A stretch of DNA of 64,000 bases, from NCBI GenBank assembly GCA_026392455.1, contig JAPLCB010000010.1, positions 124,001-188,000 on the forward strand. Direction: 5' to 3'. The notes under the pieces were generated by a model. The model had not been told where the DNA came from. It ran no database searches and saw nothing but the letters and a program-made list of their open reading frames with translations. Of the stretch, positions 23,615-35,710 are shown in pieces; within the stretch, counting starts at the first letter, position 1, and each line of letters begins with the position of its first letter. Source of the DNA: Propionibacteriales bacterium (GTDB lineage: Bacteria; Actinomycetota; Actinomycetes; Propionibacteriales; Nocardioidaceae). The translations under genes were made by a program, and so were the position numbers.

Positions 23615-25131
23615 GCCTGTTGAAGAAGAGCGCCGCCGAGCTGGCCGACATGCTTGCCGCCGGCGAGACCACCAGCGTCGCGCTGACCCAGGCCCACCTC
23701 GACCAGATCGCTGCGGTCGACGGCGCGGTGCACGCGTTCCTGCACGTCGACACCACCGGTGCGCTCGCCGCTGCGGCCGCGTCCGACGCCCGCCGCGCTG
23801 CCGGGACGCCGGCCTCCGCCCTGGACGGCGTACCGATCGCCGTCAAGGACGTGCTGGCGACCGAGGGTCTGCCGACCACGTGCGGCTCGAAGATCCTCGA
23901 GGGCTGGATCCCGCCGTACGACTCGACCGTGGTCGCGAAGCTCAAGGCCGCCGGCCTCCCCATCCTGGGCAAGACCAACATGGACGAGTTCGCGATGGGC
24001 TCCTCCACCGAGCACTCCGCGTACGGGCCGACCCACAACCCGTGGGACCTGGACCGGATCCCCGGTGGCTCCGGCGGCGGTTCGGCCGCTGCTGTCGCCG
24101 CCTTCGAGGCCCCGCTGGCGATCGGCACCGACACCGGAGGCTCGATCCGCCAGCCGGGTGCGGTCACCGGCACCGTCGGTCTCAAGCCGACGTACGGCGG
24201 GATCTCGCGCTACGGCCTGGTCGCGATGGCCAACTCGCTCGACCAGGTCGGCCCGGTCACCCGCACGGTGCTGGACTCGGCGCTGCTCCACGAGGTCATC
24301 GGTGGGTACGACCCGCTGGACTCGACCTCGATCAACGAGCCCCTGGCCGCCCTGGCCGACGCCGCGCGAGCGGGCGCTGCCGGTGACCTCTCCGGCGTCC
24401 GCGTCGGGGTCATCTCCGAGCTGGGTGGCGAGGGCTACCAGCCCGGCGTCCAGCAGCGGTTCGACGAGGCGGTGGCCCTGCTGGTGCAGGCCGGTGCCGA
24501 GATCGTCGAGGTCTCCTGCCCGAGCTTCGTGCACGCACTCGCCGCGTACTACCTGATCATGCCGAGCGAGGCCTCCTCCAACCTGGCCCGCTTCGACGCG
24601 ATGCGCTACGGCCTGCGGGTCCTCCCCGAGGGCAACGACGACCCGAGTGCCGAGGACGTGATGCGGGCCAGCCGCGACGCCGGTTTCGGTGACGAGGTGA
24701 AGCGCCGGATCATCCTGGGCACCTACGCGTTGTCCAGCGGCTACTACGACGCGTACTACGGCCAGGCGCAGAAGGTCCGGACGCTGATCAGCCAGGACTT
24801 CGAGGCCGCCTTCGCGAAGGCCGACGTCCTGGTCTCGCCGACGGCCCCGACCACGGCGTTCAAGATCGGCGAGAAGCTCGACGACCCGTTGGCGATGTAC
24901 CTCAACGACGTCGCCACGATCCCGGCGAACCTGGCCGGGATCCCCGGCCTCTCGTTGCCCGCCGGTCTGGCGCCGGAGGACGGTCTCCCGGTCGGCTTCC
25001 AGATCCTCGCCCCGGCCCTCGCCGACGACCGGCTGTACCGGGTCGGCGCCGCGCTCGAAGCCCTGCTGGAGAAGCAATGGGGCGGTGCCCTGCTCGACCA
25101 GGCCCCGACCCTGAACGGGAGCAACGCATGA
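23611..25131 (+). CDS. gatA: Asp-tRNA(Asn)/Glu-tRNA(Gln) amidotransferase subunit A
   Basis: 506 residues from a GTG overlapping the gatC stop. Amidase-signature enzyme: catalytic Lys in [12 protein letters not shown], the Gly/Ser-rich loop [11 protein letters not shown] and the cis-Ser/Ser pair in [12 protein letters not shown]. It hydrolyses glutamine and passes ammonia to GatB. The stop overlaps the gatB start (ATGA), so the three subunits are made together. Confidence 0.97.
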
Positions 25132-26621
25132 CCGAGTCCCTGATCTCGTACGACGACGCGATCGCCGCGTTCGACCCGGCGATGGGCCTCGAGGTCCACG
25201 TCGAGCTCAACACCAACACCAAGATGTTCTGCGGCTGTGCGGTCGAGTTCGGTGCCGAGCCGAACACCCAGACCTGCCCGACCTGCCTCGGCCTGCCCGG
25301 CTCGCTGCCGGTCATCAACGGCCGTGCGGTGGAGTCGGCGATCCGGATCGGCCTCGCGCTGAACTGCGAGATCGCCGCGTGGTGCCGGATGGCCCGGAAG
25401 AACTACTTCTACCCGGACATGCCGAAGAACTTCCAGACCTCCCAGTACGACGAGCCGATCGCCTTCGACGGCTACCTCGACGTCGAGGTCGACGGTGAGA
25501 CGTTCCGGGTCGAGATCGAGCGCGCCCACATGGAGGAGGACACCGGTAAGTCGCTGCACGTCGGCGGTGCGACGGGTCGCATCCAGGGAGCCGACTACTC
25601 GTTGGTGGACTACAACCGCGCCGGCATCCCGCTGATCGAGATCGTCACCCGCCCGATCACCGGAGCAGGCGCTAAGGCGCCCGCCGTCGCCAAGGCGTAC
25701 GTCGCCACCCTGCGCGACCTGCTGCTCGGCCTGGACGTCTCGGACGTGCGGATGGAGCAGGGCTCGATGCGCTGCGACGTCAACCTCTCGCTGGCGCCGA
25801 AGGGGAGCGAGGTGCTCGGCACCCGGACCGAGACCAAGAACGTGAACTCGCTGCGCTCGGTCGAGCGCGCCGCCCGGTACGAGGTCTCCCGTCAGGCGAC
25901 CTTGCTGACCGACGGCACCTCGATCCTGCAGGAGACCCGGCACTGGCACGAGGACACCGGGGTCACGACCTCGGGCCGGGAGAAGTCCGACGCCGACGAC
26001 TACCGCTACTTCCCCGAGCCGGACCTGGTGCCGGTCGCGCCGAGCCGGGAGTGGGTCGCGGAGCTCAAGGCCGCCCTGCCCGAGCCGTTGCGGGTGAAGC
26101 GTGCCCGGCTGCAGACCGACTGGGGCTTCACCGACCTGGAGATGCGCGACGTCGTCGCCTCCGACGCGGTCGTCCTGATCGAGCAGACGGTCGCCGCTGG
26201 TACGACGCCGCAGGCTGCCCGGAAGTGGTGGGTGGCCGAGCTGACCCGGCGCGCCAACTCCGACGGCGTCGAGCTCACCGAGCTGCCGATCACCCCGGCC
26301 CAGGTCGCGGCGATCCAGGCCTTGGTGGACGCCGGCGAGATCAACGACAAGCTGGCCCGCCAGGTCTTCGAGGGGGTCCTCGCCGGCGAGGGTGAGCCGG
26401 CAGCCGTGGTGGCTTCCCGCGGGCTCGCGGTCGTCTCCGACGATGGCGCCCTGGGCGAGGCGATCGATCGCGCGATCGAGGCCAACCCCGACGTTGCCGA
26501 GAAGATCCGCGACGGCAAGCACGCTGCCGCGGGAGCGCTCATCGGTGCGGTGATGAAGGACATGAAGGGTCAGGCCGACGCAGGTCGGGTCCGCGAGCTC
26601 GTCCTGGAGAAGCTCACCTAG
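25128..26621 (+). CDS. gatB: Asp-tRNA(Asn)/Glu-tRNA(Gln) amidotransferase subunit B
   Basis: 497 residues from the ATG that overlaps the gatA stop. The signature [16 protein letters not shown] and the Cys pairs in FCGCAVEFG and TCPTCLG match GatB, as does the C-terminal YqeY-like tail ([24 protein letters not shown]) that holds the tRNA. It binds misacylated tRNA and activates its acyl group for transamidation. The operon ends here; a short hairpin AGCCCG/CGGGCT spans the stop codon. Confidence 0.97.
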
Positions 26622-26663: not shown

Positions 26664-26886
26664 CGGTGTTAAGGTCTGCTGTCCTCCGCCGGAGGGCAAC
26701 AACTACATCAATCACGTTCGTGTTGGGGAAAGCCGGTCGAAATCCGGCACTGACCCGCAGCCGTAGGTCGCACACCGCGAGGTGGACGACGAGTCGGAAT
26801 GCCTGGCACGTGACGTCCTCGCACAACGCTGTCGTGGTACGCAGCGGGCGGCCTCGGCTTCCCGCTCATGCAGCGGGAAGGAAATC
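26664..26886 (+). promoter_or_regulatory. Cobalamin (adenosylcobalamin-type) riboswitch with Shine-Dalgarno-sequestering hairpin
   Basis: The conserved core is GGGGAAAGCCGGT, CGAAATCCGGCACTGACCC and GCAGCCGT (26724-26764), with the 3' B12-box-like GAGTCGGAATGCCTGGC (26791-26806). TCACGT (26712-26717) pairs with ACGTGA (26808-26813). The expression platform is a perfect 9-bp hairpin, CTTCCCGCT (26858-26866) with AGCGGGAAG (26872-26880), which buries the ribosome site GGGAAGGA six bases before the ATG. An alternative partner AGCGGG (26843-26848) can pair with the same CCCGCT (26861-26866). The layout argues for translational control: B12 off, no B12 on. The exact 5' edge is uncertain. Confidence 0.9.
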
Positions 26887-28512
26887 ATGTCCTACCTCCC
26901 TCGCCTGGGTGCGCTCGTCGCAACCTCGGCCCTCACCATCACCGGGCTGACCCTGGTCGCCCCGCCGGCGGCCCATGCTGCAGCCGATGCCCGCCCGGTG
27001 GCGATCGCCACCAAGTGGGTCAAGAACCAGCTGACCGATGGCCTGATCCACAACGATCAGTACAACTTCGACGACATCGGCCTCTCGATCGACGCTGGGT
27101 TCGGGCTCGCGGCCGTCGGCGGGCAGAGTGCCACCGTCGGGCAGATCGCCGACGCGGTCGGACCGCAGCTCACGACCGGCTACGTCCAGAGCGACGAGTA
27201 CGACTACCCGCCGCCCAGCTTCGACCCCGTCCTGGTCCAGGTGGGCTACTACGGCGCTCAGGCAGCCAAGGCGCTGGTGTTCGGCCAGGTAGCCGGGAAG
27301 GACACCGCCACCTGGGGCGGCGTCGACCTCGTAGACGCCGTCGAGGACCGGATCGCGGCCGCGCCCGTGGCGGGTCGGCTGAACAGCGACAGCTCGTACG
27401 GCGACTACACCAACACGATCGGTCAGGCGTTCGCAGCCCGAGGACTGGCGGCGGCCAGCTCGTCGAAGGCGTCCGACGCTGTCGCCTTCCTGCTGCGTCA
27501 GCAGTGCACCGCGGGCTACTTCCGGCTCGCGCTGACCGATGCGACGTGCGACGCTGACTCGGCGGCTGCCGACACGGACGCGACCGCGATCGCCGTGCAG
27601 CAGCTCGCCGCGATCACCTCGCCGACCGTGGCGGTCACCAGCGCCCTCGCCGCTGCCAGGACCTGGCTGCTCGGCGCCCAGCGGTCCGACGGCTCGTTCG
27701 GGGGCGGCGCCTCGACCACCGTCTCGAACACCAACAGCACCGCGGCCGCCGGCATCGCGCTGGCGAAGCTCGGCGAGGAGGACGACGCGGCGCAGGCCGC
27801 CGTCTGGGTCCGTCAACGTCAGGCCGACGAGCTCAACGCCTGCCCCAGTGCGCTGTTCGCCGAGACCGGCGCGCTGGCGTACAACGACGAGGCGACAGCC
27901 GCTGCCCGCGCCGACGGCATCACCGTAGGGGCCCAGGACCAGTGGCGTCGTGCCACCGCTCCGGCGATCCCGGTTCTGCAGTTCGCACCGGCAGCGGTTC
28001 CGGCGCTGGGCCTCACCGGCCCGTCGGGTTACCGTCGTGCGGGCACGGCCGCGGCGTACACCGTCTCCGGGGTCGTCCCGGGTGACAAGGTCTGCTTCAC
28101 GGTGAACGGGGTCAACCGACCGGTTGCCGCTGGCGCGAACGGTACGGCGGTCCTGACCACCGTGCTCCCCGCCGGTACGGCCAACCGGACGGTCGCCGTC
28201 AAGGACCGGGTGGGCACCAGCAAGTCGGTCGTCACGAAGGTCCTCGGGTCCAAGACCCTGCTCGTGACGCCGGCGATCAAGCGGGTCCGGCAGGGCAAGT
28301 TCGTGAAGGTGACGGTCTCCGGCCTGGCGGCCGCCGAGTCGGTGATCCTGCGCTACCAGGGCGTCGTCGTGGCAACCGGCAAGGCCGGCGCGAACGGGAC
28401 GTTCGCCCGCTACGTCAACGTCGGCCGGCGCCTGGGCACGGCCGGGATCGCCGCCTACGGCCAGTTCCCGGCGATCCGCAAGGGTGCCACCACGATCACG
28501 GTGACCCGCTGA
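26887..28512 (+). CDS. Secreted alpha/alpha-toroid protein under cobalamin riboswitch control, candidate B12-binding protein
   Basis: 541 residues. Signal peptide of about 31 residues ending PPAAHAA. Residues about 36-365 look like a prenyltransferase/squalene-cyclase-type alpha/alpha toroid, with helical pairs and a QRSDGSFGGG turn near 264. Three cysteines near 205-220 (QQC, ATC) and one near 318 may form disulfides. The C-terminal 160 residues are beta-rich, Ig-like (SGVVPGDKVCFTVNG and KVTVSGLAAAESV). Eukaryotic transcobalamin and intrinsic factor combine an alpha/alpha barrel with a beta domain, so the riboswitch plus this fold suggests an exported corrinoid-capture protein. That function is inference. 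No membrane anchor or transporter gene is adjacent. Confidence 0.8.
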   Translation: MSYLPRLGALVATSALTITGLTLVAPPAAHAAADARPVAIATKWVKNQLTDGLIHNDQYNFDDIGLSIDAGFGLAAVGGQSATVGQIADAVGPQLTTGYVQSDEYDYPPPSFDPVLVQVGYYGAQAAKALVFGQVAGKDTATWGGVDLVDAVEDRIAAAPVAGRLNSDSSYGDYTNTIGQAFAARGLAAASSSKASDAVAFLLRQQCTAGYFRLALTDATCDADSAAADTDATAIAVQQLAAITSPTVAVTSALAAARTWLLGAQRSDGSFGGGASTTVSNTNSTAAAGIALAKLGEEDDAAQAAVWVRQRQADELNACPSALFAETGALAYNDEATAAARADGITVGAQDQWRRATAPAIPVLQFAPAAVPALGLTGPSGYRRAGTAAAYTVSGVVPGDKVCFTVNGVNRPVAAGANGTAVLTTVLPAGTANRTVAVKDRVGTSKSVVTKVLGSKTLLVTPAIKRVRQGKFVKVTVSGLAAAESVILRYQGVVVATGKAGANGTFARYVNVGRRLGTAGIAAYGQFPAIRKGATTITVTR

Positions 28513-28513
28513 T

Positions 28514-29653
28514 CTAGGAAGTGCCGGGGTCGACCAGCAGGATCCGGTCGTCCCCGCCCTGGGGGTCACCACGTCCGTCACGGTTGGACGTGGTGACCCA
28601 CAGGTTGCCGTCGGGGGCGACCACGACGGTCCGCATCCGGCCGTAGTCGCCGACGAAGAAGTCGGTCTGGTCGGCAGCGCCGTCGCTGCCGACGGCGATG
28701 CGCCAGAGCCGCTGACCGCGCAGCGACGCCATCCAGAGGTGCCCGTCGACGAACGCCAGGCCGGACGGTGAGGCGTCCTGGGTCTCCCAGACGACCTGCG
28801 GGTCGCGGAACCTGGTGCGGTTCTCGTCCGACGTGGCTCTGCCCTCGACGGCCGGCCAACCGTAGTTCGTCCCGGCCTCGATCAGGTTGAGCTCGTCGAA
28901 GGTGTTCTGCCCGAACTCCGAGGCCCAGAGCCGGCCCGCACCGTCGAACGCGATGCCTTGGACGTTGCGGTGTCCCAGGCTCCAGACCGGGGAGCTCGGG
29001 TCGGGGTTGCCGGGAGCCGGCGCGCCGTCGGTGGTGATCCGGAGGATCTTGCCGCCCAGCGAGCCCTTGTCCTGGGCGATCTCGGGGTTGCCGCTCTCGC
29101 CGGTCGAGACGTACAGGTACCCGTCGGGCCCGAACGCCAGCCGTCCGCCGTCGTGGATGAACCCGCGCGGGATGCCGGTCAGGACCGGCGTGACCCCGGA
29201 GAGCCGTCCACCGGCGAAACGTACCCGGAGCACCCGGTTGTCGGCATCGGTCGAGGCGTAGACGTAGATCAGCTTGTCGGTCGCGTACGACGGTGAGACC
29301 GCAAGTCCCAGCAGGCCGGCCTCGCCGCCCGAGCGGGTCTCGTCGATCGTGCCGACCGCGGCCACCCGGCTCCCGGCGATCTGCAGGATCCGTCCGGAGT
29401 CGCGCTCGGTGACCAGGGCCGAACCGTCCGGGAGGAAGTCGATTCCCCAGGGAACCTCGAGGTTGCGGGCGACCGTTCCGATCACCTTCGGTGCCGGGGT
29501 CCTCACCGAACCGGTGGTGGCGGGGCTGGTCGCGACCGGCGCGGCCGTGGTGGGGCCGATGCTCGGGGTGGCCTTCTGGGGATCGCTCCCGCACGCTGCG
29601 AGCAGGGCCAGGGCTCCGGCCAGGGCGATGGTGGTGGGCAGAGGTGGCTTCAC
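28514..29653 (-). CDS. PQQ-type glucose/sorbosone dehydrogenase family lipoprotein
   Basis: 379 residues from a GTG. Lipoprotein signal with lipobox LLAAC (Cys near residue 21), then a Thr/Pro linker, then a six-bladed beta-propeller. Family motifs include EVPWGIDFLPDGSALVTERDSGRI, GGEAGLLGLAVSP, FIHDGGRLAFGPDGYLYVSTGE and SLGHRNVQGIAFD. It oxidises sugars or related alcohols outside the membrane if PQQ is bound; some relatives lack activity. TAGGTT lies 7 nt upstream of the GTG. It is convergent with the riboswitch-controlled gene, with two bases between the stops. Confidence 0.9.
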   Translation of the reverse strand: MKPPLPTTIALAGALALLAACGSDPQKATPSIGPTTAAPVATSPATTGSVRTPAPKVIGTVARNLEVPWGIDFLPDGSALVTERDSGRILQIAGSRVAAVGTIDETRSGGEAGLLGLAVSPSYATDKLIYVYASTDADNRVLRVRFAGGRLSGVTPVLTGIPRGFIHDGGRLAFGPDGYLYVSTGESGNPEIAQDKGSLGGKILRITTDGAPAPGNPDPSSPVWSLGHRNVQGIAFDGAGRLWASEFGQNTFDELNLIEAGTNYGWPAVEGRATSDENRTRFRDPQVVWETQDASPSGLAFVDGHLWMASLRGQRLWRIAVGSDGAADQTDFFVGDYGRMRTVVVAPDGNLWVTTSNRDGRGDPQGGDDRILLVDPGTS

Positions 29654-34052: not shown

Positions 34053-34472
34053 ATGGACCAACGGATCAGCTTCATCACCCTCGCTGTCGCCGACCTCGAA
34101 CGCACCCGTGCCTTCTACGTCGACGGCCTCGGCTGGACGCCTCAGCTCTTCGTCCCCGGCGAGGTCCTGATGATCAGGGCCGGTGAGCACCTGGTGCTCT
34201 CGCTGTGGTCCGAGGCCGGCTTCGAGGCGGAGGTCGGCCCGATCCGGCGTGGGGCCGGAATCGTCCCGATCACGCTGGCCCACAACGTTCGCAGCGAGGT
34301 CGAGGTCGACGAGGTCCTCGCGCTGGCGGGGTCGGTCGGGGCAGACCCGATCAGCGTCGGGGAGCATCGGGACTGGGGCGGCTACACCGGCTACTTCGGT
34401 GATCCCGATGGGTATCGCTGGGAGATCGCCTTCAACCCGGAGCAGACGCTCGCGTTCGTGGTTCCTGACTGA
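34053..34472 (+). CDS. VOC-superfamily (glyoxalase/bleomycin-resistance-like) protein with exchanged 3' end
   Basis: 139 residues, normal for a single-unit VOC protein. It has ISFITLAVADLERTRAFYVDGLGW at the start and GYTGYFGDPDGYRWEIAFNPEQ at the end, where Glu is the usual metal ligand. Activity could be dioxygenase, isomerase or drug binding; not known. CAGGGT lies 6 nt before the ATG. The 3' end from 34384 is repeated exactly at 35619-35689. After the repeat this copy ends TLAFVVPD in AT-richer DNA, whereas the distant copy ends TLAAIVLPD in host-like GC-rich DNA. The last codons here are therefore probably supplied by an inserted element. Confidence 0.9.
   Translation: MDQRISFITLAVADLERTRAFYVDGLGWTPQLFVPGEVLMIRAGEHLVLSLWSEAGFEAEVGPIRRGAGIVPITLAHNVRSEVEVDEVLALAGSVGADPISVGEHRDWGGYTGYFGDPDGYRWEIAFNPEQTLAFVVPD
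34384..34454 (+). repeat. 71-bp direct repeat, left copy (att-like)
   Basis: Identical base for base to 35619-35689, from ACACCGGCTACTTCGG to AGACGCTCGCG. It lies in the 3' end of the VOC gene. The sequences diverge abruptly on both sides. Confidence 0.9.
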
Positions 34473-34604: not shown

Positions 34605-35576
34605 GTGCCGATTGAAGACGCCTGTCCAGAATGCGGGGGCGTCGAGCATCGGCTGATCTCGCCGGGTCTCGCCGAGTGCACCTCGACAATCCGCTGGACT
34701 GAGATTGAGCAGCAAGTCTCGTACGAAACCGTTGATGATCCCGGCGCGTTCTACAACTTGGGCCTTCGAGGTACAAAGCAGGTGGCTGTCACCCGGAACG
34801 TCGAGGTTGAGCACTCCCGCATTTGTGGCCATCGCTTCGAGTTGGAGGTAGGAATGTCAACTGTCGCGTGCGTGAGCGGCCCGGACGGCAAGTGTGGGGC
34901 GTTCGCAGTTGGTCACTGCGCTGACTGCTCCAATCCTGCTTGCCGGTTTCATGGTCAGTTCTTCGATGGTCGGCTGCTTTGCGACATCTGCAGAGTGGCG
35001 ATCGAGAACCAGCGGGCGCTCGAAGCCGCAGAGGCCGCGAAAATCGCCGCGACTGAGGCAGAGAAACGTAGGCAACAAGCGGCAGAGCACGCCCGCATCG
35101 AGAGTGAGAAGCAGGCGGCAGCGCAGGCATCGGCCAAGGCCACGTACGACGCGTTGCCGGTGTACTCGGATGCGGACTGGATTGAGATTCTCAATGGAGG
35201 CACCGAGCCGCCGGGAAAGCGACCGACCGCGATCACCAAGTTGGACGCCGTCAGGCTGATCAATGCGTCGGGAAAGCGTTCTCGGCGCATTGCGGTGAAG
35301 CGATGGACATTCCTCAATCTCCACGGCTACCTCACTACGGCCGGGTGGGTCGTCGGTCGTACGACCCATCAGGTCACGATTCGAGGCGAGAACGTGACCG
35401 AAACGGTTTGGGTCGTGTTAACCAGCGATGGCACCACGCACTTCGGGTCTCCCTACAAGCGCAAGATTCACGTCTACGCCAAGGGCGGGCCAGGATGGAC
35501 ACCGTCTACCGAGGCATTTAAGCGAGCCAGACCATTCCTCGACCGTCGTCCCCTGCATTTCAAGGACGCTCCCTGA
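34605..35576 (+). CDS. Zinc-ribbon protein of unknown function, cargo of the inserted element
   Basis: 323 residues from a GTG; not recognised. Possible metal sites: C7-x2-C10 with C25; C97, C105-x2-C108, C113 and C126-x2-C129 in a knuckle-rich segment. Residues about 132-170 form an Ala/Glu/Lys coiled coil (EAAEAAKIAATEAEKRRQQ). The C-terminal 140 residues contain a possible winged-helix-like unit (AVKRWTFLNLHGYLTTAGWVV) and a basic tail. No signal peptide or membrane helix. Codon use (TTG, ACT, GAT) differs from neighbouring genes, consistent with transfer. A nucleic-acid or sensor role is possible but unproven. No clear ribosome site before the GTG. Confidence 0.75.
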   Translation: MPIEDACPECGGVEHRLISPGLAECTSTIRWTEIEQQVSYETVDDPGAFYNLGLRGTKQVAVTRNVEVEHSRICGHRFELEVGMSTVACVSGPDGKCGAFAVGHCADCSNPACRFHGQFFDGRLLCDICRVAIENQRALEAAEAAKIAATEAEKRRQQAAEHARIESEKQAAAQASAKATYDALPVYSDADWIEILNGGTEPPGKRPTAITKLDAVRLINASGKRSRRIAVKRWTFLNLHGYLTTAGWVVGRTTHQVTIRGENVTETVWVVLTSDGTTHFGSPYKRKIHVYAKGGPGWTPSTEAFKRARPFLDRRPLHFKDAP

Positions 35577-35578
35577 CC

Positions 35579-35710
35579 GTGCCATTGTTCGCCACAACGG
35601 CTGGCGAAGGTCGTGGCCACACCGGCTACTTCGGTGATCCCGATGGGTATCGCTGGGAGATCGCCTTCAACCCGGAGCAGACGCTCGCGGCGATCGTCCT
35701 GCCGGACTGA
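35579..35710 (+). pseudogene. Displaced 3' fragment of the VOC gene
   Basis: In frame from GTG: 43 codons whose last 30 (HTGYFGDPDGYRWEIAFNPE then QTLAAIVLPD) are a VOC C-terminus. The first 13 are unrelated. It is the probable original end of the VOC gene, pushed 1.2 kb away by the insert. It is too short to fold as a VOC domain. Confidence 0.75.
35619..35689 (+). repeat. 71-bp direct repeat, right copy (att-like)
   Basis: Exact copy of 34384-34454 within the VOC 3' fragment. The downstream sequence (GCGATCGTCCTGCCGGAC) has the high GC of the host. Confidence 0.9.

Follow-up and report, generated by a model that had tools for sequence, protein, structure and literature searches.

A cobalamin riboswitch standing in front of a gene for a secreted protein, at a place where no transporter gene can be seen, raises the question of what such a protein might contribute to the B12 economy of the cell. 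The locus lies in a stretch of 64,000 nucleotides (nt) that was analysed at its full length—the window, whose coordinates are used below—from contig JAPLCB010000010.1, positions 124,001 to 188,000 of the forward strand, of a Propionibacteriales bacterium of the Nocardioidaceae (GCA_026392455.1; the host, in what follows). The original prediction, made from the letters alone, took the product for a transcobalamin-like factor capturing corrinoids outside the cell. We consider it probable that the product, a secreted alpha/alpha toroid, is one half of a corrinoid-capture system that is split, resembles transcobalamin, and serves a B12 importer of the energy-coupling factor (ECF) type, because most of the close relatives encode the toroid together with a membrane transporter. 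The features of the locus are the following:

26704..26824, + strand: cobalamin riboswitch aptamer, RF00174 (cmscan, 34.0 bits, gathering score 31.5; covariation)
26843..26882, + strand: expression platform (fold and motif scan; putative switch)
26887..28512, + strand: gene for the secreted toroid protein, 541 amino acids (aa), SCO2321-like (translation; NCBIfam NF053823)
26887..26982, + strand: probable Sec signal peptide, about residues 1-32 (by eye)
26983..27984, + strand: alpha/alpha toroid domain, about residues 33-366 (alignments; PDB profile search)
28003..28509, + strand: two tandem Ig-like repeats, about residues 373-541 (half-against-half comparison; weak Big_6 match)

The cobalamin riboswitch core that had been seen ahead of the gene was borne out by our analysis. 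Over the whole 64 kb of the window, the one Rfam family to reach its gathering score was RF00174 (Cobalamin), at 26704-26824 on the forward strand (E 6.2e-5); its 34.0 bits against a gathering score of 31.5 and its covarying core place the element in that family. In an alignment of 27 riboswitch elements—the window's together with those of 26 homologue loci, the truncated L021 being omitted—standard pairs occupied 96.3% of the cells, and both sides of a pair had changed in 57 cells, which number was reached in none of 500 shuffles (mean 18.4), with slid controls giving 6-17. Since the aptamer covaries and is conserved across the relatives, a chance match was ruled out.

Homologues of the toroid gene were present in 42 of 98 genomes, the host's included, of an order in which cobalamin riboswitches are common (at least one in 96 of the 98). 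Among the 29 best homologue loci, the host's excluded, a cobalamin-class aptamer was found by Rfam at relaxed thresholds directly upstream in 27, the two others being L027 and L025, the latter of which is cut at 79 bases; many of these aptamers scored under the Rfam gathering level (10 of 15 in one batch). The covariance model R1, built from the 27 aligned elements, gave 102.2 bits at 26702-26823 of the window, which is one of its training sequences, and was then run on 78 named loci; these loci represent the closest relatives, because out of 223 relatives in one GTDB species-genome scan the best 80 were kept, of which 78 were distinct. In 66 of the 78 loci an R1 match lay no more than 400 nt ahead of the best toroid gene, and in 11 further ones between two tandem toroid genes, while locus L139 offered just 55 nt of upstream sequence; these counts are not independent, because some of the loci share genomes with the R1 training loci. 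The link between riboswitch and gene was thus retained in the relatives. Eleven Nocardioides loci (L113-L115, L118, L122, L128, L132, L134, L136, L140, and L141) carry at least two toroid genes in a row, of which the first seems to be without a riboswitch, since the one detected sits between the first and the second.

Between the aptamer and the start codon, the leader contains three six-base segments, B (AGCGGG, 26843-26848), C (CCCGCT, 26861-26866), and D (AGCGGG, 26872-26877), the last of which runs into the Shine-Dalgarno sequence GGAAGGA (26876-26882). According to the fold and the motif scan, C may pair either with B, in which circumstance the Shine-Dalgarno is free, or with D, in which circumstance it is hidden. 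The exact six-base B-C-D triple occurred in 26 of 60 leaders (the window's plus 59 of 64 given), whereas 100 shuffled sets gave 0.36 on average and never more than 3; this comparison does not amount to a probability because the leaders are related. Of 59 leaders folded by a simple method, 34 had the Shine-Dalgarno mostly in a stem and the other 25 did not. The leader is likely a sequestor/anti-sequestor over the Shine-Dalgarno: the B-C-D pattern and the folding support translational control, with a putative direction of the switch and a putative effect of the ligand.

As to the transporter, the original prediction had found none beside the gene, which observation is true of the window but untrue of most of the named relatives. 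No transporter gene adjoins the toroid gene within the window, so that EcfT, an ATPase, and EcfS do not share an operon with it there, and its neighbours are gatB and a glucose/sorbosone dehydrogenase-like (GSDH) gene. By comparison, an EcfT gene followed on the same strand in 64 of the 69 named loci whose downstream sequence came to 2.5 kb or more (66 of all 78), usually with EcfS behind it and with the toroid gene heading the apparent operon; the search for the same gene beside ECF transporters in relatives, which had been put forward as a check, accordingly gave a positive answer. The loci without EcfT in spite of having room for it (L077, L078, L079, L082, and L096) are among the closest to the window protein. 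The two neighbours are:

25128..26621, + strand: gatB, upstream neighbour marking the native locus (context, outside the system; synteny)
28514..29653, - strand: GSDH gene, common downstream neighbour (context; PF07995 2.7e-75; synteny)

Of the 73 named loci with 1.5 kb or more of upstream sequence, 69 had gatB within 5 kb on that side. In L039, L041, and L042 a block composed of riboswitch, toroid, a candidate beta-domain protein (the beta protein, described below), EcfT, and EcfS stands between gatB and the GSDH gene; L038, L043, and L044 have the window's order of gatB, toroid, and GSDH, with no ECF gene; and in L034-L036 gatB and the toroid are followed by a hydrolase gene, the GSDH gene not being found. 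By this synteny the window keeps the toroid at its native locus, and the absence of a transporter beside the gene looks derived.

The host genome contains three cobalamin riboswitches, namely the window's, L054, and L055. The last of these, on another contig (33.0 bits), is followed by a beta protein (L055:8850-9665), EcfT, fused ATPases, and EcfS, with no toroid gene behind the riboswitch; the EcfS candidate matched PF12822 (ECF_trnsprt) with 31.6 bits, for a cut-off of 30.7, and the beta protein matched the SCO2322 family (NF040672) with E 2.6e-9 and 37.6 bits, under the cut-off of 85. We searched for an EcfT of the L055 kind in eight genomes, namely G001 and the seven in which the toroid gene is detached, the host's among them. 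All seven had it, whereas it was not found in G001, a genome that is 75% complete and in which the contig breaks off a short way past the toroid, following a weak beta match. Six of the seven EcfT loci have a riboswitch and a beta gene ahead of EcfT, and the remaining one is truncated by the contig end. In an EcfT tree of 73 rows the seven host-type sequences grouped together (support 100/99) and stood apart from the Nocardioidaceae operons at the gatB locus; near them were L070, L072, L073, and L226, the first three of which carry their own toroid and gave no match to gatB. A second tree (56 rows, quick method) repeated that placement. Both trees are midpoint-rooted, and in the 73-row tree the long branch of L215 meets the host-type group. 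Because the trees put the host's ECF genes in another EcfT lineage, we no longer assume that the remaining genes of the operon simply moved, and prefer a replacement: on the evidence of synteny and tree, it is probable that the native ECF genes disappeared and that their function passed to those of another lineage, with the native toroid and its riboswitch staying in place.

The host has seven matches to B12-binding domains and no match to CbiC, the sole synthesis gene searched, which the same search found in 7 of 14 control genomes; these results are consistent with a B12 user unable to make the ring. The host's strongest cobalamin riboswitch is L054 (G000:C3:85651-85876, minus strand; 99.1 bits), behind which there are apparent ribonucleotide reductase genes of the B12-independent class, recognized by eye from their translations.

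Turning to the protein itself, the listed open reading frame (ORF) opens at a GTG at 26782, inside the aptamer, and the likely start is the ATG at 26887, behind GGAAGGA; with the stop at 28510-28512 the product has 541 aa, and the gene a GC content by codon position of 0.69/0.56/0.90. Two of the features originally assigned to the product were confirmed. The N-terminus resembles a signal peptide by eye, being Ala-rich with an AHA site near residue 31; and a profile of 33 toroid domains run against the PDB matched squalene-hopene cyclase at 1.6e-21 and the TED domain of complement C4A at 2.4e-4, along with a weak match to the farnesyltransferase beta subunit (0.26-1), which places the domain among the alpha/alpha toroids at superfamily level, by profile. 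Cys207 and Cys221 are invariant in the toroid alignments, and the motifs GR, DGSFGG, and NxNST are conserved. NCBIfam NF053823 (the SCO2321 family) matched residues 188-343 with E 2.1e-12 and 46.7 bits, as opposed to an equivalog cut-off of 300 bits, under which score the protein is related to that family without qualifying as a member. Against Pfam the whole protein gave no significant match (best, TED_complement at 0.029), and against PF01122 (Cobalamin_bind, the transcobalamin/intrinsic factor family) no match; compared with all 33 toroid domains, that family gave no significant match either, the best being 0.082, in 2 of the 33.

The C-terminal region consists of tandem repeats (96.8% probability for one half against the other, from 23 sequences), whose Ig-like nature is indicated by a weak match alone (Big_6, 0.3). 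These repeats are optional and variable across the family, whose shorter members (about 345-365 aa) have none and are toroid only, so that the conserved part of the family is the ring. Of the C-terminal beta domain that had been noted, there remain the weakly matched Ig-like repeats; but the region is unlike DUF4430 (0.34% probability; 0.3% against the beta protein), and the candidate beta half is a separate protein. With a C-terminal domain that is a tandem repeat having no match to DUF4430, a one-piece transcobalamin was rejected. No C-terminal membrane anchor was seen in the window protein; the SCO2321 family is named as a membrane protein.

Between the toroid and EcfT genes, 52 of the 66 loci having EcfT contain an ORF of a recurrent pattern, recognized by eye: a signal-like start, a beta domain, a proline-rich linker, and a hydrophobic C-terminus with a basic end. 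A first motif regex for such beta proteins matched in 0 of the 78 loci; ORF calling, used instead, gave an ORF in all 66 EcfT loci, some of which were second toroid genes or wrong frames. From the 52 that passed the pattern, 38 were aligned with the host's beta protein (alignment A4). Among nine proteins tested, four matched both the SCO2321 and the SCO2322 family in NCBIfam, and thus are natural toroid-beta fusions; their coordinates are L056:7866-9770, L060:7510-9213, L064:8284-10176, and L062:8207-9946, and the proteins from L060 and L062 have a C-terminus like a membrane anchor, hydrophobic and then basic.

In an even sample of the phylum, DUF4430 domains occurred in 34 of 198 genomes, in at least 17 of which, among the matches listed and with the coordinates read by eye, a SCO2321-family toroid match stood on the same contig at a distance of no more than 6 kb. 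When 25 DUF4430 domains (alignment A6, being 25 of 30 loci, with two in a wrong frame and three omitted) were run as a profile against the PDB, three matches were obtained up to an E of 10, and the C-terminal part of transcobalamin-1 (4kki, E 0.032) came second; that stretch scored 19.5 bits against the profile, with 5000 shuffles giving at most 11.0. The gene order in L217 is riboswitch (69.2 bits), DUF4430 (PF14478, 24.4 bits, cut-off 23.8), toroid, beta, and EcfT; that in L219 is DUF4430, EcfT, EcfS, and toroid; and that in L218 and L220 is DUF4430, EcfS, and toroid, with EcfT not found by tblastn. The riboswitches of L218-L220 are strong (89-106 bits), lying directly before DUF4430 in L218 and about 2.8 kb upstream in L219 and L220. 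To judge by sequence, then, DUF4430 resembles the C-terminal-type domain of transcobalamin, and it stands beside toroid and ECF genes in these four sampled loci of deeper Actinomycetota.

A number of results speak against a split transcobalamin-like system. Transcobalamin was absent among the PDB matches of both toroid profiles, which instead brought up cyclases and TED domains. The SCO2322-type beta protein had no significant Pfam match (best 0.018, in 1 of 39 members, to a phage tail family), its profile had no match in the PDB, and its direct comparison with transcobalamin-1 gave 1.1 bits, as high a value being obtained in 280 of 5000 shuffles. Its link to DUF4430 is weak: hhalign gave a P of 0.019 for alignment A4 as it stood, with 0.5 for the toroid as control, and a P of 0.0017 (15% probability, 0 of 200 column shuffles as high) once A4 had been extended by four diverse members. 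In the wider Actinomycetota the linkage is looser. Among eight loci outside the Nocardioidaceae (L223-L230), drawn from SCO2321-family matches, a riboswitch at gathering level stood directly before the toroid in just three (L223, L224, and L227) in a scan that did not look for weaker ones, which would have been missed at that level and are common in the Nocardioidaceae; and ECF genes were not found by tblastn in L223, L225, and L228. Two Streptomyces-like SCO2321 loci gave between them a single riboswitch match, a sub-threshold one to AdoCbl-II (AdoCbl, adenosylcobalamin); the beta gene of L215 is preceded by an element that likewise stays under the threshold (26.9 bits), and a strong one there points the opposite way. 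Finally, the SCO2321 model rings weakly in control genomes (4 of 14 and 3 of 14 in two scans), for which reason some of its matches may be generic toroids.

In L229 the gathering-level riboswitch precedes a separate beta gene, not the toroid; that beta gene (L229:1900-2650), which matches weakly, lies on the strand opposite to the toroid-ECF operon, for which no riboswitch at that level was detected. In the Streptomyces-like loci L221 and L222, EcfT and EcfS genes adjoin toroids of the SCO2321 type.

Were the gene to encode the alpha half of a split B12 carrier, the system might operate as follows: upon a scarcity of AdoCbl, the 5' leader would leave the Shine-Dalgarno free, and the toroid would be made and exported; at the cell surface it would hold a corrinoid, probably against the membrane-anchored beta-domain protein encoded with the ECF transporter, and would pass that corrinoid to the EcfS subunit for ATP-driven uptake; and, once AdoCbl accumulated, the aptamer would shift the leader to the sequestor hairpin and translation would stop. 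The extracellular capture of corrinoids that had first been proposed gains from the linkage with ECF genes and riboswitch, but loses in that the C-terminal domain is not that of transcobalamin and the fold evidence is at superfamily level. A variant, which strikes us as possible though rather doubtful, is that the toroid is a released, diffusible corrinoid carrier for any ECF importer of the cell, the ECF/beta operon of the other lineage having taken over after the native loss; if true, this would make the toroid a bacterial equivalent of intrinsic factor, a protein released separately from its receptor that cells could share.

Other explanations differ in what the toroid would bind or do. An exported enzyme of the terpene-cyclase/prenyltransferase superfamily, whose B12 control were incidental, would agree with squalene-hopene cyclases being the best fold relatives and with a DxDxT stretch that aligns with the DVDDT of the cyclase, which motif has a catalytic role there; yet the last Asp of the aligned stretch is replaced, the protein combines a signal peptide (by eye) with a single toroid domain, and the family is linked with ECF and beta genes, on which gene context we rejected a terpene cyclase as extremely improbable. 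We further regard it as unlikely that the toroid takes part in B12 uptake without binding corrinoid, either as a scaffold or with its Ig-like repeats tethering the ECF/beta proteins to cell-wall polymers, while EcfS or the beta protein does the capturing. The TED domain, which the toroid profile also matches, is a binding rather than a catalytic toroid, and such a role would suit both the optional, variable repeats and the lack of a significant match to a cobalamin-binding family; nonetheless, the minimal members are toroid only, the conserved G, D, N, and T along with the two invariant Cys would fit a ligand cavity, and toroid and beta are fused in some genomes. The riboswitch, for its part, ties the gene just to cellular cobalamin, so that the system might capture another corrinoid-related ligand—cobinamide, other cobamides, or cobalt complexes—and not B12 itself; a characterised B12 ECF transporter takes both cobalamin and cobinamide, according to the part of that paper at hand (PMC5997447), but with no CbiC match in the host we consider such a ligand quite unlikely.

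Elsewhere in the window, a 75-base direct repeat (34380-34454 and 35615-35689, 98.7% identical), which is the 3' part of a glyoxalase-family gene, flanks an ORF of 323 aa (34605-35573) with no Pfam match; the layout is as if that ORF had been inserted, duplicating the end of the glyoxalase-family gene.

To our knowledge, the capture of B12 by Gram-positive bacteria before the membrane step is poorly known. With the split-carrier reading, the two halves of a transcobalamin-like device would be separate riboswitch-linked genes in a common soil group, natural fusions existing besides, and in one clade toroid and transporter would have come apart, so that corrinoid binding, the sandwich model, and the exchange of partners could be tested with small soluble proteins. 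The reading would also suggest a function for the SCO2321 and SCO2322 families; none was found in print in literature searches for SCO2321-SCO2325, which brought up work on a cell-penetrating peptide for SCO2321 and nothing for the rest. The literature titles and abstracts searched, with most subscription papers outside reach, contained no description of an actinobacterial split system; the general kind has been known as a prediction since 2007, and the split, riboswitch-linked actinobacterial form with its detached toroid looks new.

Among the closest known systems are those of Burroughs et al. (2007; PMC1796856), who, in the part of the paper at hand, predicted that bacterial transcobalamin-like proteins composed of a toroid and a beta-grasp domain scavenge B12 together with CbiO/CbiQ genes. 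Such SLBB proteins were described there mainly from low-GC Gram-positives and planctomycetes, usually missing key B12-synthesis enzymes and often with a second extracellular SLBB protein in the operon, and low-GC Gram-positives were proposed as the source from which animals acquired transcobalamin; the word "riboswitch" is absent from the main text, and "actinobacteria" appears there once, in connection with ComEA. The Nocardioidaceae system shares with them the secreted alpha/alpha toroid, the transport genes, and the proposed scavenging role, but whereas the toroid/beta-grasp fusion is common in the systems of that paper, here the halves are mostly separate genes, the beta protein of the operon is of a very divergent SCO2322 type, and the window toroid is a solitary gene behind a riboswitch of its own. 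Animal transcobalamin, intrinsic factor, and haptocorrin resemble the window protein in being secreted alpha/alpha toroids and, presumably in its case, corrinoid carriers; these animal proteins, however, combine PF01122 with a DUF4430-type C-terminal domain, in place of which the window protein, having neither, carries Ig-like repeats. The SCO2321 (NF053823) and SCO2322 (NF040672) families are homologous to the toroid and to the host's beta protein, with scores far under their curated cut-offs. BtuG of Bacteroides likewise serves a transporter as an accessory protein at the surface, where it captures B12; according to the portion of the source at hand (PMC6143338) it is a lipoprotein working with the outer-membrane BtuB, and it is compared here with the window protein by role. 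ECF-CbrT, lastly, is an ECF-type B12 importer for which the available part of its description (PMC5997447) mentions no extracellular capture protein, whereas in the system outlined here a dedicated secreted factor accompanies the ECF genes.

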